Source of the DNA: Platanthera guangdongensis
Lineage: Eukaryota > Streptophyta > Magnoliopsida > Asparagales > Orchidaceae
Assembly (NCBI GenBank): GCA_039583875.1
Contig: CM077167.1
Coordinates: 146,151,010-146,215,009, forward strand
Length of the DNA stretch: 64,000 bases
Direction of reading: 5' to 3'
A model generated the notes under the pieces. The model was not told where the DNA came from and made no database searches. It saw nothing but the letters and a program-made list of their open reading frames with translations. Below are positions 37,396 through 64,000 of the stretch, one piece after another (position 1 is the stretch's first letter; each line of letters opens with the position of its first letter). The translations under genes and the position numbers were made by a program.

Positions 37396-38066
37396 GTGTC
37401 GACACCTAGAGGTGAAGTGTCGACACTTATGATGGCTAGTGTCGATACCCATTGAAGCTGTGTCGACACTTGGAGTAATTGTGTCGACCCCAGGAAGGCA
37501 GAGTCGACACCAGAAGAAAAGTGTCGACACATACATGCAGTGTCGACACACAGTGAAGAATTGTCAACATTATCTGTGTCGACACTTAGAGGCAGTGTCG
37601 ACACCCAGAGAAACTTTGTTGACATCAAAGTGTCGACACCATGAGGCTGTGTCGACACTCAGCAAACTTCAACAAAGTTAAAGTACATGTCTCGACACAA
37701 AGGAGATGTGTCGACACTCAGCAAAGTTTCAACACATGAAGGCATGTGTCGACACAAAGGAGATGTGTCGACACTCAGCAAGTTTCAACACAAGAAGATG
37801 TGTCGACACACAGCAGAAATCAACTAAGTATTGAAGAAGAAGTATTTGTGTCGACACACACAACCAGTGTCGACACATTCAACAGAAGGCTTGTGTCGAC
37901 ACACAGGATCAGTGTCGACACATTCTGAAGAAGCAGTGTCGAGAAGCTGTTACAACAACACAAGGAGTTGTGTCGACACCATTAAGGCTAGTGTCGACAC
38001 TTAGTCCACTTGTGTCGACACTTGGTCTATTTGTGTCGACACATAATGACTATCTGTCTCGACACT
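37396..38066 (+). promoter_or_regulatory. GTGTCGACAC palindrome array in SIRE#2 U3
   Basis: About twenty exact copies and several one-base variants (for example GTGTCGATAC, GTGTCGAGAA, TGTCTCGACAC), spaced irregularly at about 15-45 bp. The same array occurs at 48106-48775 in the 3' LTR and, with about nine exact copies, at 44396-44830 near the third-ORF promoter. Perfect 10-bp dyads of this kind look like binding sites for a dimeric factor or like hairpin-forming elements; which one is unknown. Confidence 0.8.
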
Positions 38067-38568
38067 TTCAGACAGTGACAGTGATTTCAAGAAGTGACTG
38101 GATGACTTGACAGCTGCCATTTCAACCAGTCAACTGCAACTGTCAGAGCTGTCAGAAGGTTGTTAGAAACCGGATCAGTCGGTTACCTTGGAGGAAGACT
38201 ATTTAAAGACCTTTCTCCTTCGACAGAAAGGATGAAGTAATCAATTGAAAAACAACACAAAAAAAGAAGAAGACCTTCAAGAGAAGATCTAAGAAGTTGG
38301 AGAGAGAGAGCTCCTTCTAAGAAGACCATCTGTTGAACCAGGCTGATAAGTAAGATTCAGATTGAGATCTGATTCACAAGACAGAAGTTGATTGAAGATC
38401 ATCTTCAGGAGATTCAACCCTACTGTGTTCTAATTCAAGAAGCTTTGAAGAAAGCCAAGGTAGGTTGATCTCTACCAAGTTCATCCAAGAACTCATCAAG
38501 AAGCCAGTCAACTCATCTCTCTCTTTCAGAGTTGTGGTTATTTACCTTGTAAACTTTATTTTCTATAG

Positions 38569-38819
38569 GATCCTAAGGGATCTGAGTTGTAAGCCTATTT
38601 TATAAAGGCTGAGTGTAGGAGACTGTGTGCTCTGAGTGTAGGTCTTGTTGAAGACTGAGGTAGGGCCTTGTGCCTGAGTTGTAGGAGACTTTGCTCTCTG
38701 AGTGTAGGTCTTGTTGAAGACTGAGTGGTAGGGCTTTGTGCCTGAGTTGTAGGAGTGGGGACACTCTGAGCTGTAGGAACCTATTTAGGGTTCTGAGTTG
38801 TAAGATTTGAGGATCTGAG
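38569..38819 (+). repeat. Tandem mini-hairpin array in SIRE#2 5' LTR
   Basis: Eleven units, each a short inverted repeat followed by CTGAG or TGAG and a TTGTAG-like linker. Examples (stem-loop-stem): GATCC-TAAG-GGATC, AGCCT-ATTTTATAA-AGGCT, GTCTT-GTTG-AAGAC, GGAGTG-GGGA-CACTCT, GGAACC-TATTTAG-GGTTCT, AGAT-TTGAGG-ATCT. Stems differ from unit to unit but pair. It lies about 370-620 bp downstream of the TATA element, so it should be transcribed. Confidence 0.85.
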
Positions 38820-39073
38820 AAGAAGTGGAGAAGTTAGGCCGAATCTAGTACACTACTAGATAGGCGAAGGGGGAAAGTGGATGTACCCAGACCTTGGGGA
38901 ACCACTATAAATCCTGTGTGCACTCTGTGTATGTTTGATTGTATGGTTGCTGTGTTGTGAAAATTATAAAATTGCATTTACTGTACAGTATTTCTGCCTT
39001 AAAATTAAAAAGACAAAGGTCACCTATTCACCCCCCCTCCCCCTCTAGGTGATTAGACATTATTTCTTTCAAG

Positions 39074-39084
39074 TGGTATCAGAG
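39074..39084 (+). promoter_or_regulatory. SIRE#2 primer-binding site
   Basis: TGGTATCAGAG, two bases after the LTR end; initiator tRNA-Met type. Confidence 0.93.
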
Positions 39085-39160
39085 GGAGGTTCCTCAAAAA
39101 GTACATAACAGTCTGAGTAGGATCCTGTAGGCAGAAATAGAATAAACAAGAATCAAGAAA

Positions 39161-41199
39161 ATGGGTTCTAGTGAGAATCACAAAGAGCTGGGGTCCATGA
39201 AATTGCCAATCTGTAGAAAAGAGATTTTTGGCATTTGGAAATAGAGGGTTAGACTCTTTATGGAAGCATCTGACCCAAGAATATACATCACAGTCAAAGA
39301 AGGGCCATATGTGCCAATGAAGATATCCATTCTAGATGCAAATCAGAAAACTCCTAAGCACTATTCAGAAATGACCAAAGATGAAATCATTCTGGCCACT
39401 ATGGACAAGAGGGCACATAATATTATTGTTAGTGCAATTGATGATGCAACATTTCAGAATTTAATTCACTGTAAAACTTCAAAGAAATGTGGGACACATT
39501 AACATTCTATATGGAGGGATCAGAAGAAGTAAGACAAGACAAGAAGTCTTTGTTAAATCAGGAATATGAAAGCTTCAGACAAGGAAAGTCTAATAGCATT
39601 ACTGAATGCTACAAGAAGTTCTATAGGATAGTAAATGAATTGATGTCGTATGGAAGAGAATTCAACAACTATGAGCTGAATGACAAGTTCTTAAGATCCC
39701 TGACTAAGGACAGGGATACCAAAATTTGTGCCATTAGGGAAATGGCCAAATTAGCAGATATACCTCCTCCAACTTTGTTTGGAAAACTGTTATCTTATGA
39801 GATGCAGTTAATGGTTAGAAAGGAGGAAGAGAAGACTACTAGAGTGGAGCACAAGGAAAGATCTATGGCCTTCAAGACTGAAGCCACTAGGAAGTATATA
39901 AGCAAGTCTCCATCTCCACCTCAAATAGTTGCTGAGGCTGTGACAGATAATTCAGAAAGCAAGAATTCAGATAGCAGTGAAAGTGATGAAGATTTTGCAG
40001 CTTTCACTAGGCATTTTCAAAAGTTTCTGAAGAAGAAGCAGTGGAGGTCTAAGCCTTCCACTTCTCAGCCAAAAGATGGCTATTATCAAAAAAGAAAGTC
40101 ATCAAGGAATGAAAGAAGCAGATCCAAGCCAAGCAAAGCTACATCTTCAAAGATTGTGTGCTATTGCTGCAATAGACAAGGACATGTAGTGGCTGACTGT
40201 CCTGAAAAGAGGAAGGAGTCAACTGAAAGAAAGAAGACACAGTTTAAGGGCAAAAAGGAAAAGTCCTTTGTTGCCAAGAAAGACAAAAGTTTGACTGATC
40301 AGTCATCTTCAGAAACAGATTCAGAAGCTGAAGCCTATATTGGATTGTTTGCTGAAGAGGAAGAAGATGAGTTCATGCAGTTAATGAATTCAATTTATGA
40401 GCATGAGGACAATCAGTGCAAAGGGCTGATGGCCTTATCTGAAGGAGACAAAATCCATGATCAGCTTGGACCAAGTAAGGTACAAAGTTGTTCTTCCAGT
40501 TCAATTTCTAGTACTGAGTCAGAATCAGATACATCTGCATCAAGTGATGTGGGTGGGTCTGAATCTGAAGGAGATAATCATCAGTTAATTGATGAATATA
40601 GGGACTTGTTGCAGGCCTTGAAGAAAAGCAAAACCTTAGCCAAAACTCAGGAAAAGGAGATTGCTAGTCTTAAATTGGCTGCTGCTGATTCAGACAAGTT
40701 GTTTGATCAGAAACTGAATGAAATAGACAGGATGAAGAACATTACTGTTATTCAGATGGGTACTATTACATTTAAGAATGATCAAATTAGAAATCTGGAG
40801 GCTAGACTTCAGAAGGAGAGAGAAATTGTTGCAAGTTTTTCTAAATCAAAATATGTTTTACCTTTGATACATGAGTTTGTACCTCATAAGGGTAAAACTG
40901 GATTGAGGTTTACAGAACCTGCCTAGACAGTTAAGTCCAAATCTAAGTGCAAAGCCCCAACACTAAACAAGAAGGCTGCAGTAGAAAATCCAGCTAGGGT
41001 GGTACCTAAACAAAGGTACAACAGGTTTGAGTGTTGGTGTTGTGGAAAGATAGACCACTTTGCCATAGATTGTTGGCACAATTCAAGTGTCAAGAAGAGT
41101 AGAAAACTACCTGCTAGAAGAGCTACAGGTAGTTTTGTTAAAAGTCAAACTAACCTGCACCAAGGACCCAAGAATTATTTGGGTTCTAAGGTTAAGTAA
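39161..41199 (+). pseudogene. SIRE#2 Gag
   Basis: ATG at 39161 (MGSSENHKELGSMKLPICRK) is shared with SIRE#3. TAG at 39242 and a one-base loss near 39484 break it; the rest is open to TAG at 40924. Gag core: FQNLIHCKTSK, YMEGSEEVRQDKKSLLNQEY, YELNDKFLRSLT. Zinc knuckle CYCCNRQGHVVADC near 40160, then a Ser/Glu-rich acidic stretch and a coiled coil (YRDLLQALKKSKTLAKTQEK). A second zinc knuckle CWCCGKIDHFAIDC near 41035. Two knuckles and a long coiled-coil tail are usual for the SIRE lineage. Confidence 0.9.
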
Positions 41200-41205
41200 T
41201 CTGTT

Positions 41206-44200
41206 TTGCAGGTGAGTCCAAGTGGCCATGCCCCTATATGGTACTTGGACAGTGGATGTTCCAGACACATGACTGGAACAAGGGGGTTGCTGAAGGACTA
41301 TACACTAATCAAGGATGGCCCTAAAGTTACCTTTGGTGGTTCAGAAAAAGGAATCATCAAAGGCTTTGGTAACATTTCTAGTAACCAAATTATAATTACT
41401 CAAGTAGCTTATGTAAAGGGTTTGAGACATAACCTCATTAGCATAAGTCAGCTGAGTGATTTAGGATATGACATCTCATTTGTCAAGGATGGTTGTCATA
41501 TCAAAAGGTCAAGTGATCAAAAGATCATTCTGACAGGATATAGGAAGAAAAATGTCTATTGTCTAGACATTATGTGTGAGAACATTGTTTCTCCTATTTG
41601 TCTTGTAGCTGATGAGAAAGTCTCACATTGTGTTAAATGGCACAAGAGGCTGGCTCATCTTAACTATAAGACAATTGGCCAACTCTTTAGCAAAGAGTTA
41701 GTGAGGAATGGTTCTCAGGTTAAGTGTATAAAGGATGGGATATGCTCAGCTTGTCAAAAAGGCAAGCAGACCAAATCCACCTTTCATAGCCTTGAGAACA
41801 AAGATGCTGTGAGGTGTCTATACCTCTTGCATATGGATCTTTTTGGTCCTATGCTAGTTCACAGCCTAGGTAGGAAGGTCTACACATTTATGGTTGTAGA
41901 TGACTATTCAAGGTATTCCTGCGTGTTCTTCCTTAGACAAAAATCTGAAACCCCAAGTATCTTATATAGTTTTGTTAAACAAATTTAGAATGAATTGGAC
42001 AGTATAGTGGTCAAAATTAGAAGTGACAATGGTACTGAATTTCAGTCTAAAAGTATGACAAAACTGTGTGAAGAATTTGAAATTTTTCAGGAATTTTCTT
42101 CACCAAGAACACCTCAGCAAAATGGTATTGCTAAAAGGAAAAATAGAACCTTGATAGAGGCTGGTAGAACCCTATTGAGTGACACATCTCTCCCAGAATA
42201 TTTCTAGGCTGAGGCAGTAAACACTGCTTGTCATGTGATCAATAGGGCTACTATCACCAAGAGCCACAAGAAGGCCCCCTATGAGATTGTGAAGGGCAGA
42301 AAACCAAATTTATCCTATTTCAGGATCTTTGGTTGCAAGTGTTATATCCTTAACAATGGTAAGTCTTATCTAACCAAGTTTGCTGCCAAATCCCAAGAGG
42401 GGATCTTTGTTGGGTACAGTAATAATAGTAAGGCTTATAGGGTCTACAACTTGATTACTCAAGTTGTAGAAGAGTCTGTTCATGTAGTTTTTGATGAAGC
42501 TAGACTTATTAACAATGAATTGCCAAGAAGTATTTGCAGCTCTACAGGTGTAACTGAGAAGATGGACAAGCTTACCTTAATAGAAGGTTCTTCTGCAAGT
42601 CAGCAAGTGGAAGATGGTGGATGTTGTCCAGGGGGAGTTCAAGATACTCCTGATGCTGAAGAAGACCAAGAGATGCAGCTAAATGAAGAGACTGAAGGTG
42701 TACAACCTGAAGACAGGCTGCCTCCAGCAAATAGGCACTTAAAGGATCATCCAGCTAATCAAATAATTGGAGATCCCAGACAAGGGGTGCAAACAAGGAG
42801 CAGGAATATAAGTACAGTTCTTTACTCCAGTTTTCTATCCCAAGTAGAGCCAAAGAAGTTTGAAGAAGCAATCCTAGACCCTCATTGGATTGAGGCCATG
42901 CAAGAGGAGCTGAATCAATTCAAAAGATGCAAGGTCTGGGAGCTAGTTCCTACACCCAAGGACCATAACATTATTGGAACTAAGTGGATCTTTAGGAACA
43001 AGTTGGATGAGAATGGAATCATCATAAAGAATAAAGCTAGACTTGTTGCAAAGGGATATAGGCAGGAAGAAGGTATTGATTTTGATCAAACCTTTGCTCC
43101 AGTAGCAAGACTGGAAGCAATAAGGATGTTCCTTGCCTATGCAACATATCAAGGATTTAAGGTATATCAAATGGATGTTAAGTCAGCTTTTCTGAATGGA
43201 AATCTGAAGGAAGAAGTCTATGTAGAGCAGCCATCAGGTTTTGTTGATTCTCTTAAACCTGATTATGTTTATAGACTTAGGAAGGCTTTGTATGGGTTAA
43301 AACAAGCCCCAAGGTCTTGGTATGAAACCCTGTCTAGTTTCCTCATTGAGAACAAATTCTCAAGGGGGAAAATAGACAAGACTCTATTCCTTAGGGAATC
43401 CAGAGGCAAGATTATCTTAGTCCAAATATATGTAGATGACAAAATATTTGGGCCTACAGAAAGTAGTCTTTGCAGAAAGTTTGCAAAACTCATGCAAGAA
43501 CAATTTGAAATGAGCAGTATGGGGGAACTTAAGTTCTTCTTGGGTCTCCAAGTTAGACAGACTGAGGATGGTTTATCCATATGCCAGTCTAAGTTCACCC
43601 TAGAGTTGATAAGGAAGTATGGTATGGAATCATCCACTACCATGAAAACTCCTATGGGGTCAAACATGTCTCTAAGCAAAGATGATGCAGGGAAACCTGT
43701 AGATGAAACTTTGTATAGAGGGATAGTTGGCTCCCTACTGTATTTGACTGCTAGTAGACCAGATATCATGTATGCTACATGTGTCTGTGCTACGTACCAA
43801 GCTTGCCCTATAGAATCTCATTTGACAGCAGCCAAAAGAATTTTGAGATATCTTAAGAGCACACCTTATCTAGGCCTTTGGTACCCTAGGGATGGAGATT
43901 TTGTACTGACAGGTTATTCAGATGCAGATTTTGCGGGCTACAAGGAAGATAGGAAGAGTACTATAGGAACATGTCAATTTCTAGGTGGAAGGCTGGTGTC
44001 ATGGAGTAGCAAGAAGCAGACCAGTGTGGCCATCTCCACAGCTGAGTCAGAGTATGTTGCTGCAGTAAGCTGCTGTGCACAACTACTATGGATACAACAC
44101 CATCTAGAAGATTATGGTATTCAAGTAAGTAGAACACCTTTATTTTGTGATTCTACTAGTGTCATTTCTATTACAAATAATCCTGTCTCCCATAGTAGGA

Positions 44201-44373
44201 CTAAGCACATAAAAATTAAATACTATTTTCTAAGAGAACATGTAGAAAAAGAAGACATTTCCCTAGAATATGTTAAGATAGATAATCAGTTAGCTGATAT
44301 GTTTACTAAGCCCCTAGATGAAACCAAATTCAATAAGTTTAAAATTGAATTAGGTATGATAAACTTAGAATAG
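41206..44373 (+). pseudogene. SIRE#2 Pol: protease, integrase, RT, RNase H
   Basis: In frame with gag. Protease: LDSGCSRHMTG near 41250. Integrase: HKRLAHLN..CSACQKGK zinc site; MDLFGPM, VDDYSRY, IRSDNGTEF, PQQNGIAKRKNRT with Lys where the catalytic Glu is usual; stops at 41986 and 42205 (both TAG). RT from about 42880: [33 protein letters not shown], and YVDDKIFGP at about 43430. RNase [58 protein letters not shown] at 44371. The RT-RNase H part (42235-44373) is open for 712 residues. Confidence 0.92.
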
Positions 44374-44395
44374 TTTAAATTGGCTAAGTAAAATA

Positions 44396-44866
44396 GTGTC
44401 GACACACAGAGTTGTATGTGTCGACACATAGAAGTGGTGTCGACATTTCAAAAAAATGGTGTCGACACATCTAGGAAGTCTGTGTCGACACTTCAGAGAA
44501 TTAGTGTCGACACATGCGGTGTAGGTGTCGACACATCCAGGGTGGTGTCGACACTTAGGATTTACACAGAATTCGTCTAGTAGGGTCTCGACTAAGTGTC
44601 GAGCTGAGATATATAAGTGTCGACACATATATTCTGTCAACTATATTTGTGTCAACACATAGTTGTCGAGACATTAGAAGTAACTGTCGACACTTTTCAA
44701 CAGTGTCGACACATTTCAAGTATTTTGACGCGCCTTTTCACTTTCAATTATAGAAAGGTATAAATAGGTCATCACCATTGTTTGTCGACACACTCACCTT
44801 AGTTTCGAGACCAAACTTGTGTGTCGACATCTCTCTTCTCTAAATTCAAAATTTATTCAAACCCTA
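44396..44866 (+). promoter_or_regulatory. Putative internal promoter of the SIRE#2 third ORF
   Basis: Between pol and the third ORF. A TATAAATA box at 44759-44766 (AAAGGTATAAATAGG) lies 108 bp before the ATG. About nine exact GTGTCGACAC palindromes and several variants fill 44396-44830, the same motif as in the LTR U3. The leader contains TCGAGACCAAAC (44805-44816), close to TCGAGACCGAAAC in SIRE#3. These features suggest separate transcription of the third ORF; no transcript evidence is available. Confidence 0.55.
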
Positions 44867-47689
44867 ATGGCGCCCAAGCTAGAAGAGAACATTAATGAAG
44901 GTTATGAGCTCGTGCGACATGCCTTTGATGACGCGAAACCAGAAATCCAAGGTGTGGTAACCCTAGTTGCTGAGACTGGGTTAGAGTATCTTGTTTATGA
45001 ACCAATCAAGATATGGAAGAAGGAGGTCCTTGAATTCTTGAGTGCAGCTACTCTTGATGAATCTAAACTCAAGATTAAGTCCAAAGTTCATGGGGCAAAA
45101 GTCAAGATTACCCTGAAAAATCTAAGAAAGATTCTACATCTCCCTAGAACTACAGAAGAGGAAGATGTACCTGCTTCAAAGACAAGGGAGGCACTGGCAT
45201 GGTGTGGACTTGATTCAAGCCTGAAGATTAGATCAGTGTTCAACAGGAAAGGCATGAACATGCAGGGCAAGTTATTATCTGAAGTAGTGGGCAAGGTGAT
45301 GCTGAGCAAGCCTGGTGGGCATGATAGGATATTAGCTCACATGTTCAGTTTGATGACAAGGATTATTTTCAAACTTAAAACTGATTGGTCAATAGTCATG
45401 TTTGATAAGATAAAGGAAAGTTTGAAGAAGCCAAATCTGGGTAGGATTATGAGTTTATACTTAGCTGGAAGTATCCCTGAAGTGATGAACCAAGCTGCAG
45501 GTTCAAAGATAAACCACATGAGGAGAATGGATGTAAGAATTTTCTCAAGGTGGGATAGAGTGTTGACAAACGAAATGCCAACTCCAGAAAAGGAAACCCC
45601 ATAGAATTAGAGGAAGACAGTCATTATGGCACAAGAATCCTCAAGTAGCTCAGAGGAACTAGTGGTTTTTAGTTCTGATGATGGAGAAGATGACCATGCT
45701 GGACAGTCACCAGAAAGACAGGAAGATGCTCAGAGGCAGGGGGAGCTACCATCAGCTAGCCCTATTCACCTGGTTCGACACCAGGGGGAGCCTCTACATG
45801 TGGATGAGTCAACTCATTTAGAGAGTGAAAGGGCTACTCAAACCATTCTAGAGGTAATCACTGAAGTTAATCAATTAAATTTCAATATTGAGGATGAAGT
45901 TCTGACTGAATCATTACTTGATGTTGATCAGCATAAACAGTCGCATAGTCAACCACAAGATGCTGTCATGGAGGACACATCAGTTGCTGATAAAGTAGAC
46001 TCAGTTGCTCCTGAGATCAGAGATTCTCCAGTTCAACCTCAACATGTGTTTACACTAGAAGAGCTGTTCCTTGATCTTTTACAGACTGACTTTGAGGGAG
46101 AGAAAGCAGCTGTTGAGGGGAGAAGGTCAATCTGGAGGGGGAGCATGTAGAGGAGACTGCTAGAAAAGAGACTGAAGAGCAAAGAAATGCTGAGGAGCTA
46201 CCAAGGACTGAGATGGATTTACATCCTAGTCCTAAGGACAGAGTATACATTGCCAGTACTTCTGCTTCAGAGGATGAAAAGGCTGCTAGAGCCAAGAAAA
46301 GAAAGTTCCAGGTCTTCAAGAGAAGAAGCCAGACCTACAAGAAAGCACTGTAAACTATAGTTCCACAACAAGCCCCAACAGCTGATTATAGTTCATTGAT
46401 GGTGGCTTTGCAGATTAAGCTAGATGAGCAAAGGAAGGCTTTACAAACTTATATGGATGAAGGCCATAAATCACTTCAATTTGATCTGGCTCAAGACATA
46501 AAATCTATAAGATTTGAAGTGAATCAAAACAAGAAGGAAATGATTGATTGTTTCCATAAAGGAGGGAATGCAGTGGTCTATCTGGCTACTCATCAAGAGA
46601 ACTTAAAGAAACAGATTGATGACTTGGCAGTGAAACAAGGATATGTCCTGGAAAACCAAATTAGAATGAATGACAATTTAACTGAATCACATAATGTGAT
46701 AGTCACTGAAATGCAGAATCTAGCTGCTGCTCAAACTACAGCAAGGACTGCTGCCAAGGCTGAATTTGATAAGCAATTACAAGAAAGCCTAACTGCTGTT
46801 AAAACTGCAATTGAAGATTCTCATAAGGCAATTACTGAAAAGCTACAAAGGTTAAAACCTTTTTATAAAGATGGAGTTAATTATTTAAATGCTCAAATCA
46901 GATTCCAAAAGGATGATCTTAGGGATCATATAGAAAGAGTAGTCATAAAGGGGGAGAGGGTGTTAGTCAAAGCAGGCTCTGATCATGCAAAAATGGATTT
47001 CAAACTCCATCAGAGCTACCCTTGGATATCCACCCTTGTGTGATGATGATAATGTGGCAGAGTCTGGAATTAATCCTGCATATTTCGGAGGAGAACAAGC
47101 TGAAGTGGCTCAAGTGATATATCCTCCTGTAGATTTTGACATGATACATCAGGAGGTACAATCTATGTATAGTCCTCCTGAGGGTAATCAGAATGTTATT
47201 CTTGAGAAAGTAATACAGCCTGTAGCAGAGGCAATATTAAAAGAGCAAGAGGCTTTATTAAAGGAACAAGAGGCCCAATTATCTAAGAAAAGGTTCAGAG
47301 AGCAGGCTGAATTAAGGCCAGACTTTGAGCAATGGAGCCCAACCTCTAGGAATATCATATTAACTGCTTGGAAGGCTGCAAAGGATAATTTCCTAGAGAG
47401 GGGCAAATGGTATTCTGACCAGGAATGGAAAAAGCATGAAGCTAGGCAAGAGGCCATAGTTCAATACAGAAGGAAGGCTAAATTAGGGAAGCTACCTCCT
47501 AATGCACAGGAGCCTAGCAAGTATTTCCCTAAGCCTTATCACTATTTTGAAAGATAGAAGATAAGGGCTGAAGAACAGAAAAAGAAAGATCTTAAGGGTA
47601 AGAAGCCTGCTGATGACAATGATGCTCCTGTTCAAGCAAAGATTCAATCTAGAAAGGGCATTGTTATCAAGGAACCAGAGCAGCCATAG
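44867..47689 (+). pseudogene. SIRE#2 third ORF (extra gene after pol)
   Basis: ATG at 44867. The first 245 residues are open: YELVRHAFDDA, VLEFLSAATLDESK, KVKITLKNLRKILHLPR, ALAWCGLD, GMNMQGKLLSEVVGKVMLSK, GGHDR, LGRIMSLYLAGS. Stops at 45602 and 45608, then an acidic Ser/Glu-rich linker (to about 46110), a frameshift, a Lys/Arg-rich patch (AKKRKFQVFKRRSQ), a coiled coil (46396-47000), another frameshift, and a C-terminal module with ALLKEQEAQLSKK, WSPTSRNIILTAWKAAK, KYFPKPYHYFE. The frame ends at TAG 47687. SIRE elements are often said to carry an env-like gene here, but I see no signal peptide or membrane segment. The N-terminal part may resemble a 'putative plant transposon protein' domain; this is a guess from layout. 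Confidence 0.8.
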
Positions 47690-47960
47690 GATAGAATTTT
47701 CTTAAGTTTACAATTTGTAATCATTTGCATTAAACTCTATGTAAACTTTTGATTAATGAAAATGTTTGAAGTTGTAAGAACAATGTTATATGTTCAATCT
47801 ATTACATTATTGTTCTGAGATAATTATTTATACATGTTCTATTTATACATGTTTAGTTCTTACCCTGTCATATAATACTGTTATACATCATATTGAGTAT
47901 TTGTTATGTATGGTGTATATCATTGACTAAGGGTTATGACTTCTCCAAATAAGGGGAGAT
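47690..47960 (+). other. SIRE#2 3' untranslated region and polypurine tract
   Basis: AT-rich, no gene. The polypurine tract AAATAAGGGGAGAT (47947-47960) abuts the 3' LTR. Confidence 0.85.
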
Positions 47961-49772
47961 TGTTGGGTACATTGGAATATATGTACCTGATTTGAAGAAG
48001 CCTCACCCTTCTCAATGATATACATCAAGGTGTATTTGATGTGCTTTGAGTTTATGTCTGCAGGTTAAGTAATTGCAGGGAAAGCATAAAAGTTTCTAAG
48101 TCCATGTGTCGACACCGAGAGGTGAAGTGTCGACACTTATGATGGCTAGTGTCAACACCCAGAGAAGCTGTGTCGACACTTGGAGTAATTGTGTCGACAC
48201 CAGAAAGGCAGAGTCAACACCAGAAGAAAAGTGTCGACACATACAAGCAGTGTCGACACACAGTGAAGAATTGTCAACATTATCTGTGTCGACACTTAGA
48301 GGTAGTGTCGACACCCAGAGAAACTTTGTCGACATCAAAGTATCGACACCAGGAGGCTGTGTCGACACTCAGCAAACTTCAACAAAGTTAAAGTACATGT
48401 GTCGACACAAAGCAGATGTGTCGACACTCAGCAAAGTTTCAACACATGAAAGCATGTGTCGACACAAAGGAGATGTGTCGACACTCATCAAGTTTCAACA
48501 CAAGAAGATGTGTCGACACACAGCAGAAATCCACCAAGTATTGAAGAAGAAGTATTTGTGTCGACACACTCAACCAGTGTCGACACATTCAACAGAAGGC
48601 TTGTGTCAACACACAGGATCAGTGTCGACACATTCTGAAGAAGCAGTGTAGAGAAGCTGTTACAACAACACAAGGAGTTGTGTCGACACCATCAAGGCTA
48701 GTGTCGACACTTAATTCACTTGTGTCGACACTTGGTCTATTTGTGTCGACACATAATGACTATCTGTCTCGACACTTTCAGACAGTGACAGTGATTTCAA
48801 AAAGTGACTGGATGACTTGACAGCTGCCATTTCAACCGGTCAACTACAACTGTCAGAGCTGTCAGAAGGTTGTTAGAAACCAGATCAGCCGGTTACCTTA
48901 GAGGAAGACTATTTAAAGACCTTTCTCCTTCGACAGAAAGGATGAAGTAATCAATTGAAAAACAACAAAAAGAAGAAGAAGACCTTCAAGAGAAGATCTA
49001 AGAAGTTGGAGAAAGAGAGCTCCTTCTAAGAAGACCAGCTTGAACCAGGCTGATATGTAAGATTCATATTGAGATCTGATTCACAAGACAAAAGTTGATT
49101 GAAGATCATCTTCAGGAGATTCAACCCTACTGTGTTCTAATTCAAGAAGCTTTGAAGAAAGCCAAGGGAGGTTGATCTCTGTCAAGTTCATCCAAGAACT
49201 CATCAAGAAGCCAGTCAACTCATCTCTCTCTTTCAGAGTTGTGGTTATTTACCTTGTAAACTTTATTTTCTGTAGGATCCTAAGGGATCTGAGTTGTAAG
49301 CCTATTTTATAAAGGCTGAGTGTAGGAGACTGTGTGCTCTGAGTGTAGGTCTTGTTGAAGACTGAGGTAGGGCCTTGTGCCTGAGTTGTAGGAGACTTTG
49401 CTCTCTGAGTGTAGGTCTTGTTGAAGACTGAGTTGTAGGGCTTTGTGCCTGAGTTGTAGGAGTGGGGACACTCTGAGCTGTAGGAACCTGTTTAGGGTTC
49501 TGAGTTGTAAGATCTGAGGATCTGAGAAGAAGTGGAGGAGTTAGGCCGAATCTAGTACACAACTAGATAGGCGAAGGGGGAAAGTGGATGTACCCAGACC
49601 TTGGGGAACCACTATAAATCCTGTGTGCACTCTATGTATGTTTGATTGTATGGTTGCTGTGTTGTGAAAATTGTAGAATTTCATTTACTGTACAGTATTT
49701 CTGCCTTAAAATTAAAAAGGCAAAGGTCAATTATTCACCCCCCCTCTAGGTGATTAGGCATTATTTCTTTCA
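47961..49772 (+). repeat. SIRE#2 3' LTR
   Basis: 1812 bp, collinear with the 5' LTR: GTGTCGACAC array 48106-48775, TATTTAAAG at 48910-48918, hairpin array 49276-49526. Several palindromes differ from their 5' partners by C-to-T or G-to-A changes inside the CpG. Confidence 0.94.
49276..49526 (+). repeat. Tandem mini-hairpin array in SIRE#2 3' LTR
   Basis: Eleven units as in the 5' LTR. Differences between the two LTR copies here fall in loops or linkers (for example AACC-TATTTAG-GGTT versus AACC-TGTTTAG-GGTT, and AGAT-TTGAGG-ATCT versus AGAT-CTGAGG-ATCT); I noticed none that breaks a stem. Confidence 0.85.
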
Positions 49773-50945
49773 ACAGGGCTGGATGTCACTTGTGTGTGTC
49801 TACCCAGACCCCAAGCAGATCCCGCTTCCAGACTCTCACCTAGCTAGCAGGGCTGGATGTCACTCGTGTGCGTCTACCCGGACCCCGAGCAGATCCCGCT
49901 GCCAGACTCTCACCTAGCTGGAAGGGCTGCATGTCACTCATGTGTGTCAACTTAGACCCCGAGCAGATCCCACTGTCAGGCTTTCACCTAGCTGGCAGGG
50001 CTGGATATCACTCGTGTGTATCTACCAGGACCCTGAGCAGATCCCGCTATCAGGCTATCACCTAACTGGCAGGACTGGATCTCACTCATGTGTGTCTACC
50101 TGGATCCCGAGCAGATCCTGCTTCTAGGCTCTCACCTAGCTGACAGGGCTGGATGTCACTCGTGTGTGTCTACTCGGACCCCGAACAGATCCCGTTGTCA
50201 TGCTCTCACCTAGCTGGCAAGGCTGGATATCACTCATGTTTGTTAACTCATACCCCGAGCAAATCCCGCTGTCAGTCTCTCACCTAGCTGGCAGGGCTGG
50301 TTCTCACTCGTGTGCGTCTACCCGGACCCCGAGCAGATCCCACTAACAGGATCTCACCTAGCTTGTAGGACTGGTTGTCACTTGTGTGCATCTACCAGGA
50401 CCCCGAGAAGATCCCGCTGCCAGGCACTCACCTAGTTGGAATGGCCATGTCACTCATGTGCGTCTAACCGGACCCCGAGAAGATCTCGCTGCCAGGCTCT
50501 CACCTAGCTGGCAGGGCTGGATGTCACTCGTGTGCGTCTACTCAGACCCCAAGTAGATCTCACTGCCAGGTTCTCACGTAGCGGGCATGGATAGATGTCA
50601 CTCATGTGCGTCTACCCGGACCATGAGCAAATCCCACTATCATGCTCTCACCTAGCTGGCAGGGCTAGTTGTCACTCGTGTGTCTTCCCGGACCCCAAGC
50701 AGATCCCGCTTCCAGGCTCTTACTTAGCTAGCAGTGCTGGATGTCACTCCTCTGCGCCTACCCGGACCCCGAGCAAATCCCACTGGCAGGCTCTCACCTA
50801 GCTGACAGGGATGGATGTCACTCGTGTGTGTCAACCCGAACCCCGAGCAGATTCCGCTGTCAGGCTCTCACATATCTGGCAGGGCTGGATGACATGCGTA
50901 AGAGTCTACTCCGTTTGTTAACTGGCTGGCAAGACAGGTCTCAAT
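49773..50945 (+). repeat. 74-bp tandem array in the Tat element (about 16 units)
   Basis: The unit begins CAGGGCTGGATGTCACTC and includes ACCCGGACCCCGAGCAGATC. Starts at 49774 and 49848 give the 74-bp period. Each unit holds an inverted repeat CTGCCAG-(12)-CTGGCAG around CTCTCACCTAG. The units are 80-95% alike by eye. The array lies just downstream of integrase, a place where Tat elements often carry tandem repeats that can seed satellites. Short open frames through it are artefacts of the period. Confidence 0.93.
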
Positions 50946-55162: not shown

Positions 55163-55181
55163 ACAAAAAGAGCGGGGATTG
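55163..55181 (+). promoter_or_regulatory. Tat polypurine tract
   Basis: CACAAAAAGAGCGGGGATTG just before the 3' LTR start TGTAAAACC at 55182. Confidence 0.65.
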
Positions 55182-55716
55182 TGTAAAACCCTGTGTTCAC
55201 CAAGTGGGTCCACTAGACAGGGAGAGCGGACCAAGACGACCAGTCTACTCCAGAATAGTATGCGGGCAAACTCAGAATAGCCAGCCCGCTCCCACCAAAG
55301 ATAGGCACACAAGCTGCACGGGCTGGCCCACCCAGCCCACGTCTGCCCGGGGTTCGTCGAATGAAGCTCGTCATTTGTTGAGCGGAGCTCAGCCTCCTTC
55401 AAGCTAACCTTGTGAGTTAGAATCCTGGGTTCGTCAAACTAAGCTCGACAAGATCAATGCCTATGGAATTCCTTCTATAGTAATAGTCCCAGACCGGCCA
55501 GCCCGCTCTCCCATAGGTGACCTAGCTGCCAGCCCGCCTCAGAGCGAGGGTCGGCAGGCTACTGCGACCTGGCTCGTGCTCGCCCAAGGAGGGAAGGAGA
55601 GCTGCGGGAGCCAGGTCGTGTCTGCTTCAGCGAGGTGGAGAGTTGTGGCGAGCCGACCTCCAAATCCTTGAAACCTGCCCAGTGGGTCCCGGAGGTAAAA
55701 TTGACTAGATGCCCTT
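55182..55716 (+). repeat. Tat 3' LTR, cut by SIRE#3
   Basis: Collinear with 30754-31300 of the 5' LTR. The match stops at GATGCCCTT (55716), where SIRE#3 begins. The missing part, homologous to about 31300-31675, should lie beyond SIRE#3. Confidence 0.85.
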
Positions 55717-55975
55717 TGAAAGTTGTTTAACTAAAGGCTAGTTAATCACTTAGAGGGGGGGGGGGGGTGAATAGGTCATTGAAAATTTTATTGGTTCTTT
55801 GCAGATTTCAACTTAAACTATCTAGAGCTTGTCCTTAGATCCTACAATAAGAAATAAAACAAGCAACACAACAAACACAAAGATTTATAGTGGTTCCCCA
55901 ATTGGGTACATTCACTTTCCCTCTCACCTATCCAACAGATTTGTTGGACTATGCAAAAACTCCACCAATATGCTT

Positions 55976-56532
55976 CTCAGAGCTTACACCTCAGGCCCTC
56001 AGCCTTTTACACAGATTCTTCACAGAATACAAACTCAGAACCACAAGGGTTCCTACCTCAGAGCATTGTAGAGCTCCTACAGCTTAGTGATCCACTAATC
56101 ACCTACCTCCGCCTTATTTCTAAGGCCTACAACTTAGGCTCTTCATCCCTACAGCTTCAGGAACATAGCCCTACTCTCAAAGTGCTGCAGCACTCCTACA
56201 ACTTTGTACCCTTCCAGGTACCTACAACTCAGCGTCCTCCAAGGTCTACAACTCAGTGACACACTTGTCACCTATAGCTCAGTGACTCTCCAGTCACCTA
56301 CCACAGGCACAAGGCCCTACAATCAGGTGGGGAGGACAACCCTGCCTCAGATCCACACTTAGATCCTACCTCAGAGAGCAGCACTCTCCTACCTCAGGTA
56401 ATTAATCCATACAGCTCAGATTAACACTTGGATCCTACCTTAGTACCCCAACAAGGCACCTACCTCAGTGACTAATTAGTCACCTATCTCAGGCACAAAG
56501 TGTCCTACAATCAGATTCAGATAAACTGAATC
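55976..56532 (-). repeat. Tandem mini-hairpin array in SIRE#3 LTR
   Basis: About 22 units separated by CTACNNCTCAG (reverse complement CTGAGNNGTAG). Examples, written on the plus strand as stem-loop-stem: GATTCAG-ATAAA-CTGAATC, GTGACT-AATT-AGTCAC, GTGACT-CTCC-AGTCAC, GTGACA-CACT-TGTCAC, GAGAG-CAGCA-CTCTC, GCCTTA-TTTC-TAAGGC, GTGAT-CCACTA-ATCAC, GTACC-CTTCCA-GGTAC, AGTGC-TGCA-GCACT, AACC-ACAAG-GGTT. About 16 units have an unbroken stem of at least 4 bp (G-T allowed); a few are weak. It lies about 410-970 bp downstream of the TATA box. Confidence 0.85.
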
Positions 56533-57224
56533 CTACAAGAAGTAAATTAGAATGTTTAAGAGAAATAACACAATTGACTTAGAGATAAGTCTCTAAGTCT
56601 ACCTTGCTGTACTGAGCAGATATCCGTTCAGCACACTTGTTGTACAAGGAATTAGTCCTCTTCTACAGCTAACACTTTTCTGTTGCACATATGAGCAGCT
56701 ACCAGCTTGTTGAATGGATGAATCAGCTTCTCTGTTCTGGAGAGAACTATCTTGCTGAGCTTGAAGAGCTTCAGCTATCTTTCTTTTCCTTTCAGACTAT
56801 CTCTGCTAGACTTGAGCTTTCAAGCTTGATAGAGAAGAAGATGTTCAGCCGCCTCTAATTTTCTTTCTGTATTTTCTTCGTTTGTTCTCTGTTTGTTTGT
56901 TCGATCTTTTTTTCGTTGCCCTAATCCCTTTTCATTTTCCTTTTTATATGCGTTGATTTGAATCAACGACACACTTGTATGTTGGCCCAGCCAAGGATTG
57001 GTGAGCTCCACCTTTTTTAGAAAAGGACATGGCAGCTTTCGGTGCTACTGCAGCTTTCCCGCAACGGCTACATGTAAGTTGACTTTGATGACGTCAGCAA
57101 AGGTCATCACCATCTGGACCTAGAAAATATTCCAGAAATCCATAAAGCGTTGAGTAATGTTAAGTCACTCAACGTCATTTGTCTTGGCTCTCAATGCTTC
57201 TGAACTTGTGAATTTTCTCTGGAT

Positions 57225-57805
57225 TTGTCTCAGCGGTTCTGTCTCAGTGGTCTCAATGGTTTCTTCTTAATAACTATGACAGACCTTTATCTCAATGCTT
57301 TCTTCTTATCAGTTGAGACAAGTTTCTATCTCAGCGGTATCTTCACAGCGGTCTCAGCGGTTTTTGCTTCACAGTTGAGACTATCTTCTGTCTCAGTAGT
57401 TTTCCTCTTAACCGTCTCAGTGCTTCCTTATTCATTAGAAGCGTTGAGTGAACCTGCTTCACTCAATGCTTCTGGACTTAGAGAAATCCAGCTAGTTTTG
57501 TCTCAGCAGTTAAGCTGACACATTCTTCTTAGTTATTTTAGCTGTCTCAGCAGTCTCAATGCCTTCTTCTCAGCTATCTCAGTTGTCTCATCGCTTTTTT
57601 GCCTTAGTCAATTTTCTGGCTTTAGCTGTGTTTGATGATCTGATCTCGACGAACTCTGATCTTCTCAGCAGTCTCAGCACTTTTTGCCTTAGTCAATTTT
57701 TCTGGCTTTAGCTTGATAGTTGTTGAGCTGAGCACGACGATTTGCAAGCTGAGCTCGACGAACTGTAAACTGAGCTTGATGAACTGCGAGCTGAGCTCGA
57801 CGAAT
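57225..57805 (-). repeat. Two short-motif arrays in SIRE#3 U3
   Basis: 57225-57700 has a dozen or more TCTCAGCGGT/TCTCAGTGGT/CTCAATGCTT variants. 57720-57805 has about four ~21-bp units of the GAGCTGAGCTCGACGAACTG type. They occupy the U3 position that the GTGTCGACAC array holds in SIRE#2. Confidence 0.75.
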
Positions 57806-57976
57806 TTTGAGTTTGCCACCAAACTCATTTTATTCACTTGTCCAACCATGGACTACCTGCATGTAAGAACTAGAGCACACATAAAATACATTATGCTACT
57901 TAGCATGATTGGTGATGGCTCTTCAAATCCTGAGGATCATTGTAGGGCACACTTCCCAACAATCTCCCCCTATTTG

Positions 57977-58472
57977 AAGAAGGCAGAACACCCATCCATG
58001 CTAAGGTGCATCAACACAAGAAATATCATGATAGGTCTAATGATAACATTATCATGACAACTAGCCATCCCAGTACAGGACAACTCCCCCTAGATGAGTT
58101 GGCTTACCACTATGATTGAAAGATCCAGTATATGTGAATTATCAATCATTGACAATGTGATAGTATGATTAATCAACAAAAACTTTATTAATCATTTACA
58201 AGGTACACAGTTTGATTAAGATCTACCTAAACATTAACTTAGCCAAACAACAGTAGCAAACTTGTGATTACAGGATTTCTATGAAAAAAATAACATATTT
58301 ACCAAACACAGATATGTAAGTGAAAATTTCATGCACATTTGTCACATTAATGTAGTCATGGCCAAAACATATTCATTTCCTTGATAGAGATTTGAAATTT
58401 TCACTGTTGATATTCATTACAAAATATAGATTAGACAATTTTTTAAATAAGCTTAAGTCTTGCAGTCTTCTA
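57977..58472. other. SIRE#3 3' untranslated region
   Basis: AT-rich, no gene seen; corresponds to 47690-47946 of SIRE#2. Confidence 0.7.
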
Positions 58473-60826
58473 TCAGCTATTCTGTGATGAACTTGGACCA
58501 GCATCCTTGGTTGCAGCAGTATTCTTCAAGTTTTCAGCTTTGCTCTTCTGCCACTTGAAGTAGAGGAATGGCTTTGGAATATATCTGGGAGACATTTTCT
58601 TGGGGTTGATCTTCCTTACCAGATTTTCTTTGAATACTCTTTCCCTTAGGGAATTTCTTTCTAGATGATTTATCCATTCCTCGGAAGGATATACACTATC
58701 AATATTCTTTAAGATTTGTCCATGGCTTACCCACACATTGATAATGATGGATTCAGAGGCATCACTTAGCTGTTCATAGTCTGGATCATCTCTATTCTCA
58801 GCTCTCCTCTTTGACATGAACTCTTCAGCCATTTGAGTTCCTTCCCTCTTTCTTCTGGTATCAAGCTGTGCATCCTGTGCAATTCTAGCTTGTGCAGGGA
58901 AGTCTAGGTCCTCTGGCCTCTTTCTATCCAGGAGGGCAGGTGTAGTGCCACCTTGGTGCCTTGAATTACATTGAAGGCTTGATCTTCAATGAGTGTTGCT
59001 GCCTTAGCATGGCTGCTCTCCTCATTTATGCCTTCTTCAGAGATGGTCTTTTGCAGTAAGGTGGTGTTGGCTTCATTATTGCTTGATATAGAATTGAATA
59101 TTCTCTCATTGTCAGCAAGCAGCTCATCTTTCAGAAGTATTGCCTCCTTCATATATTGGAAGGCAACATTGGTGACATGCTGATTTACATGATCATCTGC
59201 ACCCTTGATCACCTCATCATTTGCACTCACATAATTCTTTATATATCCCATGTCAGCTGCAGAGAGTTTCTGACTTGTGTCTAAGGATTTCATGAGGGTG
59301 GTAGTTTGATGCCAGCAGTTCCAGCACAATCAAACCAGGTTATGACCTGTTTGTTTAAGTGAGAGATTTCTTCTTTATTTTCATTGACTTTGGTTGTCAA
59401 GTCATCCCTCAGTTTGGCAACTGATTGATCAACATACTCCTTGTGGGTTGTTGTCTAAGCATCCAAGAGTGCTTTGATTTTGTTTAGAAATTCATCATTG
59501 GAGATGGGGGTAGATGAAGTATGGCTCATAGGAGGAGGTACAACATTCTAAGCATGGATCAGAGAAGGCTCCCCCTCAACTACAACACCTATAGTAGGAA
59601 ACATTTCCTTAGCTAAAGCTGTATTACCACTACTAATTAAGATGGTATGGGTATTACCTGTAGAGGGTGTAGACTAAACTATCTGTTTATAACTTGATCC
59701 AAGTTTGTCAGATCCATCTGATCATGCTCCCCCTCAGACTGAGCATCCTTCTCTGGGCTTGACCTATCAAGATAAGTATCTAAAGCCTCAGGAGGCTCAT
59801 GGTTATTTTCAATAGTAGGCATATCATCAATTACACCTATATCATCAGTATCTGTCATATCTGCCTCATCTTTTGCAGCAACTTCTTCTTCATTGCCAAT
59901 CTTTGCACTTGTCCTAACCTAGGGCTGGCATGGATTTTATCAGCATGCATAACAGTGCCCTGGGGTTGAATGTTTGCGGAGGATTGAATGAGTGATAAGT
60001 CAACCTGCAGAACAATATCAGCTGGAGAGGATCATCCAAGCTCTAGTTCAGGGCTAGAAGTTCTTCCTTCCTGAGTAGGTTTCTTCCTTATACCCTTAGA
60101 GGAGTCCTCTATTCCTGAAGGTTGGCTCATTGGTAGGACCCTAGTGAATCTGTCCAAAGTCTTTATGTCCATTCTTTTTAGGTAGTGAATCTTCACCCCA
60201 TGATCCTATTTGAAAGTATTAGGATAGGTGTTCACTAGGTATAAGAAAAGAATTCTGCCCATGTTTGGAGAGGGTATACAGTCTACTACTCTTTGATAGA
60301 TGAGAGATGACCATGAGGTCATTCTATTCAGGATAATTCTGGCCATGCCATCAAACATGGACTTGGAGATAGTGTCATGTGATCCAGGTTTGCAGATAAA
60401 GACTTTCACTACAATATCTGCTAGCAGTTTGCCTCTCTGATTGAAGAATTTCCTTTTAAGAGACCCAGATTTGGCCTTATTGTATTCACACCATCTGAGA
60501 GCACTGTCTCTGTCCATGATGGCGGGCTCTTCTTCCTCACTAGGGTTGACAGAGGGTATATGAATGGCCTTTCCTGGTCTCTTAGGGTTTACCTTTATTT
60601 TAATATCTTCAATCTTAGACTTAAGAGAGTTTTGAGAGGAGGACACTTTAATGTTCAAGAAGAATTATACTAACTCCTTTTTAAGAATGGTGGAGGGTTC
60701 GGACAGGGTGTACTCCAGGCCTGTGATTTCAATCATCCTTGCTTTAATCTCTAGGGAGGCTTGACTGAATCCATCCCTCCCAATTTCGTATCCTTCCTGG
60801 AGCTCCTTGATGACATTTGGCACCAT
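58473..60826 (-). pseudogene. SIRE#3 third ORF (extra gene)
   Basis: ATG at 60826. The N-terminal domain aligns with SIRE#2 and SIRE#1: ELQEGYEIGRDGF, GLEYTLSEPS, a TAA about residue 54, then ALRWCEYNKAK, GKLLADIVVKVFICK, GSHD, ARIILNRMTSWSSL, MGRILFLYLVNTYP. TAA-type stop near 60206. The acidic linker and coiled coil (59330-60200; 58904-59329) are frameshifted. The C-terminal module (58473-58832) is open: MAEEFMSKRRAENRDD, SESIIINVWVSHG, PRYIPKPFLYFKW, matching PKPYHYFE in SIRE#2. Shorter than in SIRE#2 (about 780 versus 940 codons of span). Role unknown. Confidence 0.8.
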
Positions 60827-60932
60827 TGAAATAGTGCGGCAAGACGCTGAGAGGGTTTCGGTCTCGACAGCTAGGGTTAAGGCTTTTAAAGAGTGGAGTG
60901 GCTATTCATTTCTTGTCGCCTTTCTATTTATA
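60827..60932 (-). promoter_or_regulatory. Putative internal promoter of the SIRE#3 third ORF
   Basis: Minus strand TTGGTATAAATAGAAAGG (TATAAATA at 60932-60925), 106 bp before the ATG. The leader has TCGAGACCGAAAC (60867-60855), nearly the same as in the SIRE#2 leader. Confidence 0.55.
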
Positions 60933-61479
60933 CCAAAAGGGTTCAATTATCAATTAAGCATTTTTTTAGCCTAAAACTTATACATTTCATTTTAACGGGT
61001 TGTGTTACGCTTCCTGTTATGAAACAGGAGATTTAGTTCTTTGAATTTTCTACCCTCGACTTTTCTTCTACTTATTCAATGCATATTTAATTTGTGGCTT
61101 CCCTTACAGATTGGATGTACAATCTATTTGACTTAAAAAACATTTTATTAGTTTTAAATATAAGGGGACCTAACATGTTAATGAGCCAGTTCTATTGGCA
61201 CTCCAATTATGCATTGGTTTACCTTAAAGCTTGCTAATAAGTTATTTGAAATTTTAGAATAATGCCTACAAAAATTAATAGTGTAGATAATTGAATCACT
61301 GTTTTCTATATGGTGTGTGCTTGATTAGGTTCAGCCTGACCACATCTAACATAACTAATAATTAGCAAACTTAATCTCTATACAGGAGAGAGACTTACCT
61401 TGAGGCTTGCTTCCTCTAGTTTTTGAGGATTACATTATTGACAGCCTCAACCGTAATTTGTTGCTTTTCCTAGAGCATA
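60933..61479 (-). other. SIRE#3 pol deletion scar and upstream gap
   Basis: Only ~550 bp separate the protease stump from the third-ORF TATA box, where SIRE#2 has about 3.5 kb. AT-rich with no coding similarity. It contains a donor-like CAAG-GTAAGT (61398) and an acceptor-like TTTTTGTAG (61266) on the minus strand, enclosing 133 bp. Whether this is an intron is unknown. Confidence 0.5.
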
Positions 61480-63993
61480 TTTCTAGAGCAACTATCCTAT
61501 CCCAGACATTTGTCTGGAACACCAATTGTCCAAATACCAAGTCCTAATTAGACAGGTACTTGGACTATCCTGCAAAACAGAATTCATTTACCCTTAGGCA
61601 CCCAATGATAATTGGGTACTAAGTTCTTATTAGCATTATAAAATATCTACCCAAATCTCTGCCTGGGCTGAACACCTTTCTGTCCACTAGCCATATTCAG
61701 GTTGTGTCAACAATCAATGGAAAGATGGCCCACCTTCCCACAGAACCAACATCTATGAATGTTGTACCTTCTCCTCAGGACAACACAGAATTGTTGTCCA
61801 TGAGAGAAGTGAGCAGCTCTAGATTTTGCTGGATGAGCATATCATGATGCTTCTTCCTTCTTCCTGAGTGAAGGTGCTGAAGATTTAAATACATCTGGTC
61901 TAGAATGGGCCAATTGTATTTTTGGAGCCTGCCATTTAGTGGACTCTTTCATCTCTTTAGATAAAGGATACTTATATCCAAATCTAAAGAACTTATTCTG
62001 AGAATTCTGGCTAGAGTGGATAGCATCACTCCTTCTGAGATCATGTGTCATTACCCCACTGGTAGAGCACACATTAGATTGCTCCTTGAGAGAAGATCCA
62101 ACCTTGATAGTTCTAGAAGGTGAATTTACCTTTTGAAACACTGTCCTCTTATCAGGGAATTCAGATTTGAATTGATGATTGATGTGATTAATTCCCAGCT
62201 TCTTAGGGACTTGGCAAGTTGCAACTTTTGTCAATTGACCCTGTGACTGAGAAGGGTTAATCACAATCCCCAACCTCTCTTTGAACTTTTGTTCCAGATA
62301 TCTGATATGCTTTTTCTTCTCTTCTAGAAGCAAAATTTGACACTCAAGACTTTTCTTGAGTTCAGACACCTCATGACTTTTCTTATAGAACTTAATAGAT
62401 TTATTATTATAAAGAGTTTTATAAGGCATTAGGACTTCTATCTCCTTGGTTTGCCATTTGGCAAGAATTCTGCTCTTCTTTAGAGCATCTAGGAGTAGTC
62501 CATACTTGTCAATCAATTGATTGACATCAGTCTCAGATTCTGAGCAATCTTTATCATAGGATGAAGATGCACCAGTATCTGGACTGGTCTCATAGTCAGA
62601 GGAAGATACAGAATTGAAAATAGGTTGTACTCTGATTGATTCTGAATCTGGCTGACTTCTTTCTTCTTCAGTCATTTCCATCATACCATGGCATCCATAG
62701 TCTTCTTCATCCTCCTCATTTTCACTGTCTGAGTGTGACAGAGGGGCCCTGATTCCTATCCTAGCAGCATGATATTCCTCTTCTTCTGGATCAGCAGCAA
62801 CAGATATCGGCCCTATATAGGCTTCTTCCACTTCATCTTCAGATTCTGAGGAGGAAGAATCTGTCCAGCTTCTCTCATTCTTAGTTACAAAGGGCTTCTA
62901 CTTCTTCTTATCCTTGTTATGATGGTGATGATTTTTCTTCTTCTTCTCATCTTCTTCCTTTCTTTTGACTAGGCAGTTGGCAATGACATGCCCATCGTTG
63001 CTGCAAGAATAACAGATAACATTAGAAGTAATCTGTTTACTAGTTTTAGTGACATACCTGTCATTCTTAGATGACCTCCTGTGATAAGAGGATAAAGATG
63101 GCCTGCTCCTCCAGTCCTTCTTCTTTATGAACTTCTGAAATTGCATGGAGAAGGCAGCTAGATCTTTATTAGACATGTGGTTGTCTGATGAGCTTAGCTC
63201 AGAATTTTCTAAGCTAGATTCAGCTTCCCTCCTTGGTGATGAGGGAGACTTTCTTCTGCTTCTTCTTGGGTCTTCTGCCTTGAATGCCATAGACTTGTCC
63301 TTGGACTTGAATTGGCAGCACTTCTCCTCTTCTTGTCTAGCATCCAGCTGCATTTCATAGGACTGCAACTTTCCAAAGTGTGTTGGTTGAGAGGTGTCTG
63401 CTAACTTAGCCATTTCCATAATGACACAAATCTTGGTATCCCAATCTCTAGTGAGAGATCTAAGGAACTTGTCATTCAGCTCATAGTTACTGAAGACCCT
63501 ACCATAGGTTCTTAGTTCATTGACTGTCCTAAAGAACCTTTCAAAACAGTCAGCAACATTTTCAGACTTGCTTAGCCTAAAGGCCTCATACTCTTGATTG
63601 AGCATGGACTTTCTATCATATCTAACTTCATCAAAGCCTTCCATGTAGACCAGAAGGGTGTCCCACATTTCCTTAGAGGTCTTGCAGTGTACAAGATTTT
63701 GGAAAGTTGAGTCATCAATGGCACTGGCTATAATATTTTGTGCTCTTTTATCCATGGTGGACAAAATCACTTCATCTCTGTCCATTCTAAATATGGCTTA
63801 GGCACTCTCACAGTTGGATCTATGGTGGAAGCCTTTGTGGGGACAAAACACCTTCCACTACTGTTACATAGATCCTAGGGTCAGATGCTTCCATGAGCAG
63901 TCTGACCCTTTTCTTCCAAAGGCCAAATCCTTCCTTCCTGCATATGGGCAACTTCATGGTCCCTAACTCCTTGTAGTTCATTCCTGACCCCAT
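61480..63993 (-). pseudogene. SIRE#3 Gag and protease stump
   Basis: Minus strand. ATG at 63993: MGSGMNYKELGTMKLPICRK, WKKRVRLLMEASDPRIYV. A frameshift near 63800 leads to the gag core (VILSTMDKRAQNIIASAIDD, YMEGFDEVRYDRKSMLNQEY, YELNDKFLRSLTRD). Zinc knuckle CYSCSNDGHVIANC near 63000; TAG at 62898; then a frame open to 61842 with the acidic stretch and coiled coil (LDALKKSRILAKWQTKEI). A second knuckle CWFCGKVGHLSIDC near 61730, followed by TGA. The protease motif survives as WYLDNWCSRQMSG (61541-61503), with the active-site triad altered. Gag is fairly well kept for a pol-less copy. Confidence 0.87.
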
Positions 63994-64000
63994 AATTTTA

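Follow-up and report, generated by a model that had tools for sequence, protein, structure and literature searches.

A long terminal repeat (LTR) of a retrotransposon in the orchid Platanthera guangdongensis carries a row of short inverted repeats whose arms differ from unit to unit and still pair, each set between spacers that are conserved in sequence. This arrangement raises the question of what keeps the pairing while the stems vary, and in which molecule, RNA or DNA, the pairing matters. A sequence-only reading of the locus had described about 22 mini-hairpins at positions 55976-56532. We confirmed them, on the minus strand, as 23 inserts at 55994-56532, and found a second array, beyond the single one of that reading, in another element of the same window (the whole 64-kb stretch of DNA analyzed). 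The comparisons below draw on two element families and three LTRs in this one window.

Two Sirevirus-type elements

The first array lies in the 3' LTR of an element designated A (55717-57961, minus strand; 2245 bp, TGTTGGG...CA). Its polypurine tract, GGGGGAGAT, is located immediately upstream and adjoins the LTR (57962-57970, minus strand); the complete element of the window, B, has AAGGGGAGAT at the equivalent place. The outer end of the LTR was set by a repeat copy: 30753-31288 matches 55181-55716 at 84%, and the match ends at 55716, one base before the TG. The LTR adjoins the second copy of this pair, and the first copy continues past that point. Because the 5' LTR of element A lies outside the window, its target duplication is not visible. 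Within the LTR are a TATA-like box identified by its sequence, TATAAAAA (56941-56948, minus strand), a 10-bp hairpin, GACTTAGAGA/TCTCTAAGTC, upstream of the array (56576-56599, minus strand), and a pattern match to the polyC-rich, putative integrase signal of Sireviruses (55749-55774, minus strand).

The internal part of element A (57961-64000, minus strand) includes a gag ORF with a CCHC zinc knuckle and Retrotran_gag_2 (62898-63797, minus strand). Over 39 residues it also matches the beginning of the element B ORF that contains Pol_BBD and gag_pre-integrs, and it matches the ORF that comes after the reverse transcriptase (RT) in element B. A tblastn search at E values up to 1e-3 gave no match to the element B RT ORF. 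Since gag and the post-RT ORF are matched and the RT ORF is not, element A looks like a pol-deleted Sirevirus-type element that has kept its leader and gag.

Element B (37251-49772, plus strand) is complete in outline, with a 5' LTR (37251-39071), a 3' LTR (47961-49772), a 5-bp target duplication (ACAGG), gag, RVT_2 and CCHC; its ORFs are interrupted. It is inserted within a 74-bp tandem array (49774-50891, with an edge at 37206-37250).

The 5' LTR/PBS junction of Sireviruses is defined in the relevant section of PMC2829016 as CA, A(T/G)TGG and TATCAGAGC. Element B has TTTCA-AGTGG-TATCAGAGG, with 8 of 9 PBS bases, giving the Sirevirus-type junction CA-AGTGG-TATCAGAG. The same source lists a polyC-rich signal close to the LTR 3' end and a TATA box near the LTR middle as features of the family, and describes an inverted repeat flanking the polypurine tract. 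The polyC-rich pattern is present in element A and in the 5' LTR of element B; in the B 3' LTR, the run is shorter and does not fit the pattern. With regard to gag and RVT_2, element A shows gag and CCHC only. On these sequence features, A and B are Sirevirus-type (Ty1/copia) retrotransposons.

The window also contains long direct repeats at 12024-13656 and 16747-18370 (97.7%) and at 20226-21399 and 27307-28496 (96.5%), which are probably LTRs of other elements, as well as a long TA dinucleotide run at 10063-10137.

Anatomy of the arrays and pairing of their arms

The 23 inserts of element A are 11-19 nt long and are bounded by linkers of 8-11 nt with the form TGAG(N0-3)GTAG. In element B, the array of the 5' LTR has 11 hairpin units (38569-38815, plus strand), and that of the 3' LTR (49276-49522, plus strand) differs from it at 3 positions in 247 nt. 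With A and B pooled, linkers start with TGAG in 22 of 32 cases and end with GTAG in 24 of 32. Inserts tend to begin with G, finish with C and pair inward. The commonest length, 16 nt, corresponds to a 6-bp stem with a tetraloop, and 3 of the 11 units listed have tetraloops of the GNRA type.

The proposal that each repeat carries a regular stem held for most units of element A, with contiguous terminal stems (Watson-Crick and G.U) of at least 3 bp in 16 of the 23 inserts, at least 4 bp in 13 and at least 5 bp in 12. It did not hold for the other 7, whose terminal stems are shorter than 3 bp (decayed, bulged or shifted); no terminal pair or a single one is present in 4/23. Stems of at least 4 bp occur in 8 of the 11 element B units.

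The stems of element B are mostly other than those of element A, at an equivalent LTR position. Certain loops (CTTGTG, CTTGTTG) are seen on more than one stem, and A and B have one insert exactly in common, so the two arrays probably share ancestry. There are also signs of kinship within arrays: three of the 23 element A units share the arm GTGAC and one more has GTGAT, and element B contains a block duplication (38609-38687 with 38674-38755, 91%). TRF reported no tandem array at 55976-56532 because the arms are unrelated. At the array 3' end is a closing hairpin, TCCAACA/TGTTGGA in element A (55931-55948, minus strand) and ATCTAGTA/TACTAGAT at the same place in element B. As wholes, its arms are not the same in the two elements, and the pairing is offset by one column from A to B; of the 8 columns of the 3' arm, 5 agree between A and the copy designated B1. 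Right after the array, the block GGGAAAGTGRATGTACCC...GGGGAACCACTATAAATC (55875-55932, minus strand) is conserved between the two elements.

It had also been claimed that spacers are conserved in sequence and stems mainly in pairing, and this was borne out. Between units of element A, linker ends are 80% alike and arms (positions 2-5) 27-30%. As a control, arms were exchanged between units, which keeps everything except the match between arms. The Watson-Crick fraction at positions 2-5 was 0.782 in A versus 0.298 after swapping, and 0.829 versus 0.335 in B; in neither element did any of 20,000 swaps reach the observed value. All four Watson-Crick types occur at positions 2 and 3.

Because kinship among units could inflate this result, A and B units were pooled and only one was kept for each distinct arm. 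Collapse to 3-nt arms left about 10 units (0.795 versus 0.301; worst of 20 draws, 0/2000), and collapse to 4-nt arms about 16 (0.764 versus 0.293; also 0). At 2-nt arms, 4 units remained and power was lost (worst draw, 97/2000). Moving the frame of element A by 1-8 bases in either direction lowered the fraction from 0.78 in register to 0.15-0.29, a scan that guards only partly against the choice of unit edges, which were set at linkers after the stems had been seen. Among the eleven 16-nt units of element A, 90.9% of cells pair versus 53.5% in shuffled sets, and the covariation score is 0.952 versus 0.239 shuffled and at most 0.215 slid. Both sides change in 5 of 6 pairs of these units, a count that taken alone is no higher than in shuffles (5 versus 4.4; 269/500).

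Comparison with dinucleotide shuffles, the check suggested for the locus, agreed with these results. Hairpins with a stem of at least 5 bp numbered 12 in A versus 2.8 in shuffles, and 6 in B versus 0.9 (0/300 each); with at least 6 bp, the A array had 6 versus 0.75 and the B array none. This count is not specific to the arrays. It is high in the B U3 (15 versus 7.4; 0/300), where palindromes of the known type lie, and leans high in the A U3 (10 versus 6.4; 24/300) and in the stretch between the TATA-like box and the array of B (7 versus 3.6; 9/300). Folded as whole-array RNA, element A gave z-scores of -3.2 (sense) and -3.7 (antisense). With the span limited to 40 nt, z-scores were -5.0 and -3.8 for A and -2.0 and -3.4 for B, sense and antisense, respectively. 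Together, these data point to a chain of hairpins that is maintained as structure as such.

Searches for the array or its relatives elsewhere gave little. Sequence patterns in viral contigs yielded either two loci (L001, L002) without Sirevirus features or nothing, and a pattern run on a genome contig collection found nothing. The element B RT domain had 9 pattern matches in viral contigs and 125 in genome contigs, none of them confirmed. The single Rfam match in 55700-57000 at E values up to 1 was below the gathering score and outside the array.

Transcription and the folding molecule

The array was thought to lie downstream of the TATA box of a SIRE LTR, in the transcribed part. Indeed, the distance from the TATA-like box down to the array start is about 410 nt in the Sirevirus-type LTR of element A and about 360 nt in element B. 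Summed over three segments, the leader contains 7 sense ATG triplets in A versus 18.7 expected and 3 versus 11.8 in B, and where the two arrays contain NTGTAG (14 words in all), N is never A. Sense ATG is not clearly low in U3 (A, 16 versus 19.1; B, 17 versus 17.2). In the part of the leader that precedes the array, antisense CAT shows no shortage (5 versus 4.4 and 4.3). Antisense CAT is low within the element A array as well (0 versus 2.5; 24/500), so base composition may account for some of the ATG deficit in that array. The ATG-poor leader supports transcription and scanning of this stretch, and the two arrays, placed downstream of a TATA-like box in such a leader, are probably transcribed. 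R has been estimated at about 10 bp in Sire LTRs (PMC3601003); on that estimate the array would be in U5, present once per genomic RNA, between the cap and the PBS.

The departures from Watson-Crick pairing bear on which molecule folds. At interior positions 2-4, pairs are Watson-Crick in 79 of 96 cells, and G.U and A.C occur equally often among the departures (2 and 2). Positions 5-7 lean to the sense RNA (G.U 9 versus A.C 1; 171 of 3000 swaps as extreme), as do departures overall (12 versus 5; 2/3000), and this lean comes largely from T.G pairs beside loops.

When RNA was folded with a span of 24 nt, stems of at least 4 bp formed in 12/13 cases in A and 7/8 in B (sense), and in 11/13 and 7/7 (antisense). 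In unrestricted folds, 8 of the 13 element A stems formed in RNA and DNA of both strands. Element B stems above 0.5 numbered 2/8 in sense RNA, 5/7 in antisense RNA, 7/8 in sense DNA and 6/7 in antisense DNA. In element A, swapping the arms makes the linkers less open (0.508 before, 0.438 after; 0/60). In element B sense it does not (0.456 before, 0.488 after, with 45 of 60 swapped arrays at least as open), and the B sense minimum free energy is unexceptional (11 of 60 swapped arrays as low). The most open linkers are antisense. Because G.U and A.C are balanced at positions 2-4 and DNA folds are at least as good as RNA folds, we keep both an RNA function and a process at the level of DNA or cDNA under consideration.

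Competing explanations and a proposed role

We tentatively propose, as our preferred reading, that the array is a cis-acting structured leader region, predicted to serve as a multi-site Gag-binding platform for packaging or dimerization, and we would not call this reading probable as yet. The LTR promoter, with a transcription start that we infer, would produce RNA whose leader folds in cells into about twenty short hairpins with conserved G/U-rich linkers (UGAG..GUAG) between them. Recognition would be of the linker sequence, and perhaps of the loops, and the stems would space and present the linkers; since this is their proposed role, stems would be free to change while pairing. The likeliest reader is the element's own Gag, whose CCHC zinc knuckles would bind many linkers at once, leading to packaging of genomic RNA and possibly to its dimerization.

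The proposal builds on the anatomy of the arrays, the pairing with varying stems in two families, the position downstream of the TATA-like box, the ATG depletion and the CCHC knuckles in the gag regions of both elements. An apparently pol-deleted element A that retained its leader and gag fits with Gag as the reader of the linkers. Predicted linker accessibility supports such a platform in A and does not in B sense. Against it, the equal numbers of G.U and A.C at positions 2-4 do not indicate that selection acts on the sense RNA. Between the cap and the PBS, retroviral leaders carry packaging and dimerization signals made up of short hairpins and unpaired G-rich stretches that are read by Gag zinc knuckles. 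The array, whose function is putative, resembles them in its predicted series of short hairpins and G-rich single strands, but retroviral leaders have a handful of distinct stem-loops, and the array has one linker repeated some 20 times between stems that vary. In the HIV-1 work of PMC7395439, the passage on the leader reports binding of about two dozen NC copies.

A mutational origin is a serious but somewhat doubtful alternative. Template switching during reverse transcription or replication in imperfect inverted repeats would copy one arm into the other, so that both arms change at once, and the direct repeats formed by the linkers would allow block duplication; little or no selection would be needed. 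As described in sections of PMC8794818, such switching can make perfect stems in a single event, with multi-base compensatory changes, and the array is similar in that perfect stems could be made or repaired by arm-to-arm copying. The nearly uniform Watson-Crick interior with its balanced G.U and A.C, the duplicated block in B and the closing hairpin whose arms differ as wholes between A and B all agree with this origin. By itself, however, it leaves unexplained both the likeness of linker ends relative to arms and the ATG depletion. The same sections call the part of switching in the maintenance of short stems less clear, and concern RNA genes and DNA replication, with no mention of a tandem array in a retroelement leader. 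The earlier suggestion offered selection or an inverted-repeat mechanism, and the data did not separate the two.

It is unlikely that the array acts at the DNA level, either as palindromic boxes for host factors or as hairpins in minus-strand strong-stop cDNA, with the pairing being dyad symmetry. Sireviruses are known to carry palindromic boxes on the upstream side of the TATA box, and the pertinent part of PMC2829016 (Bousios et al. 2010) proposes them as cis-regulators; in addition, DNA folds recover the element B stems better than sense RNA folds do, and antisense linkers are the most open. Factor sites, however, would be expected to keep the box constant and let the linker vary, the reverse of what is seen, and the array is downstream of the TATA-like box. 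The known RM boxes are 66.5-100% alike within an element (Table 3 of that study), have a CGG-CCG core in 12 of 13 cases, lie upstream of the TATA box and have divergent flanks. Both they and the array are high-copy palindromic units in Sirevirus LTRs, but the array has conserved flanks around varying palindromes and a downstream location. We therefore rejected membership of the array among RM boxes, given the low likeness of the element A arms and the distances of both arrays from the TATA-like box. The U3 of element B (37390-38060) contains many GTGTCGACAC palindromes with variable spacers, which are RM-box-like and a mirror image of the downstream array.

The main text of PMC2829016 contains neither "hairpin" nor "stem-loop", and the sections consulted mention no downstream array. 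Clusters of palindromes that give rise to secondary structure in LTRs were reported in a 2016 work, as cited in passages of PMC10760457 and PMC5311732. The array is similar in that structure arises from clustered palindromes, but those passages quote a single palindrome that is repeated within the regulatory region. The claim that arrays of this type are undescribed in SIRE LTRs is upheld within the open-licence literature searched; we found no such description there, and the RM palindromes known from it are near-identical and upstream of the TATA box.

Translation control, by hairpins in the leader that adjust scanning or cause ribosomal shunting to gag, appears improbable. The leader is long and has few sense ATG triplets, but ATG depletion tells only that ribosomes pass, and stems as short as 5-7 bp would impede scanning little. 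More remote still is a barcoded zipper, in which each near-palindrome would unfold and hybridize with its own counterpart on another genomic RNA or cDNA molecule. With stems that vary among units, matching would require a partner that is in register and belongs to the same family; homodimers would thus be selected for packaging and strand transfer, and RT template switching would renew the code. Chance, or plain tandem duplication without upkeep of pairing, has a negligible likelihood and was rejected: some A units do share arms, but the arm swaps (also after collapse to 3-nt arms), hairpin counts, covariation and register scan all stand against it.

A Gag-binding platform and template switching need not compete, since a linker-reading protein and switching could act together. 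To our knowledge, the packaging and dimerization signals of plant LTR retrotransposons are hardly known. Sireviruses account for about a fifth of the maize genome (PMC10760457). An array of 250-550 nt with built-in internal replicates would offer a test system for Gag recognition in plant retroelements, and for whether covariation of short stems comes from selection or from template switching.
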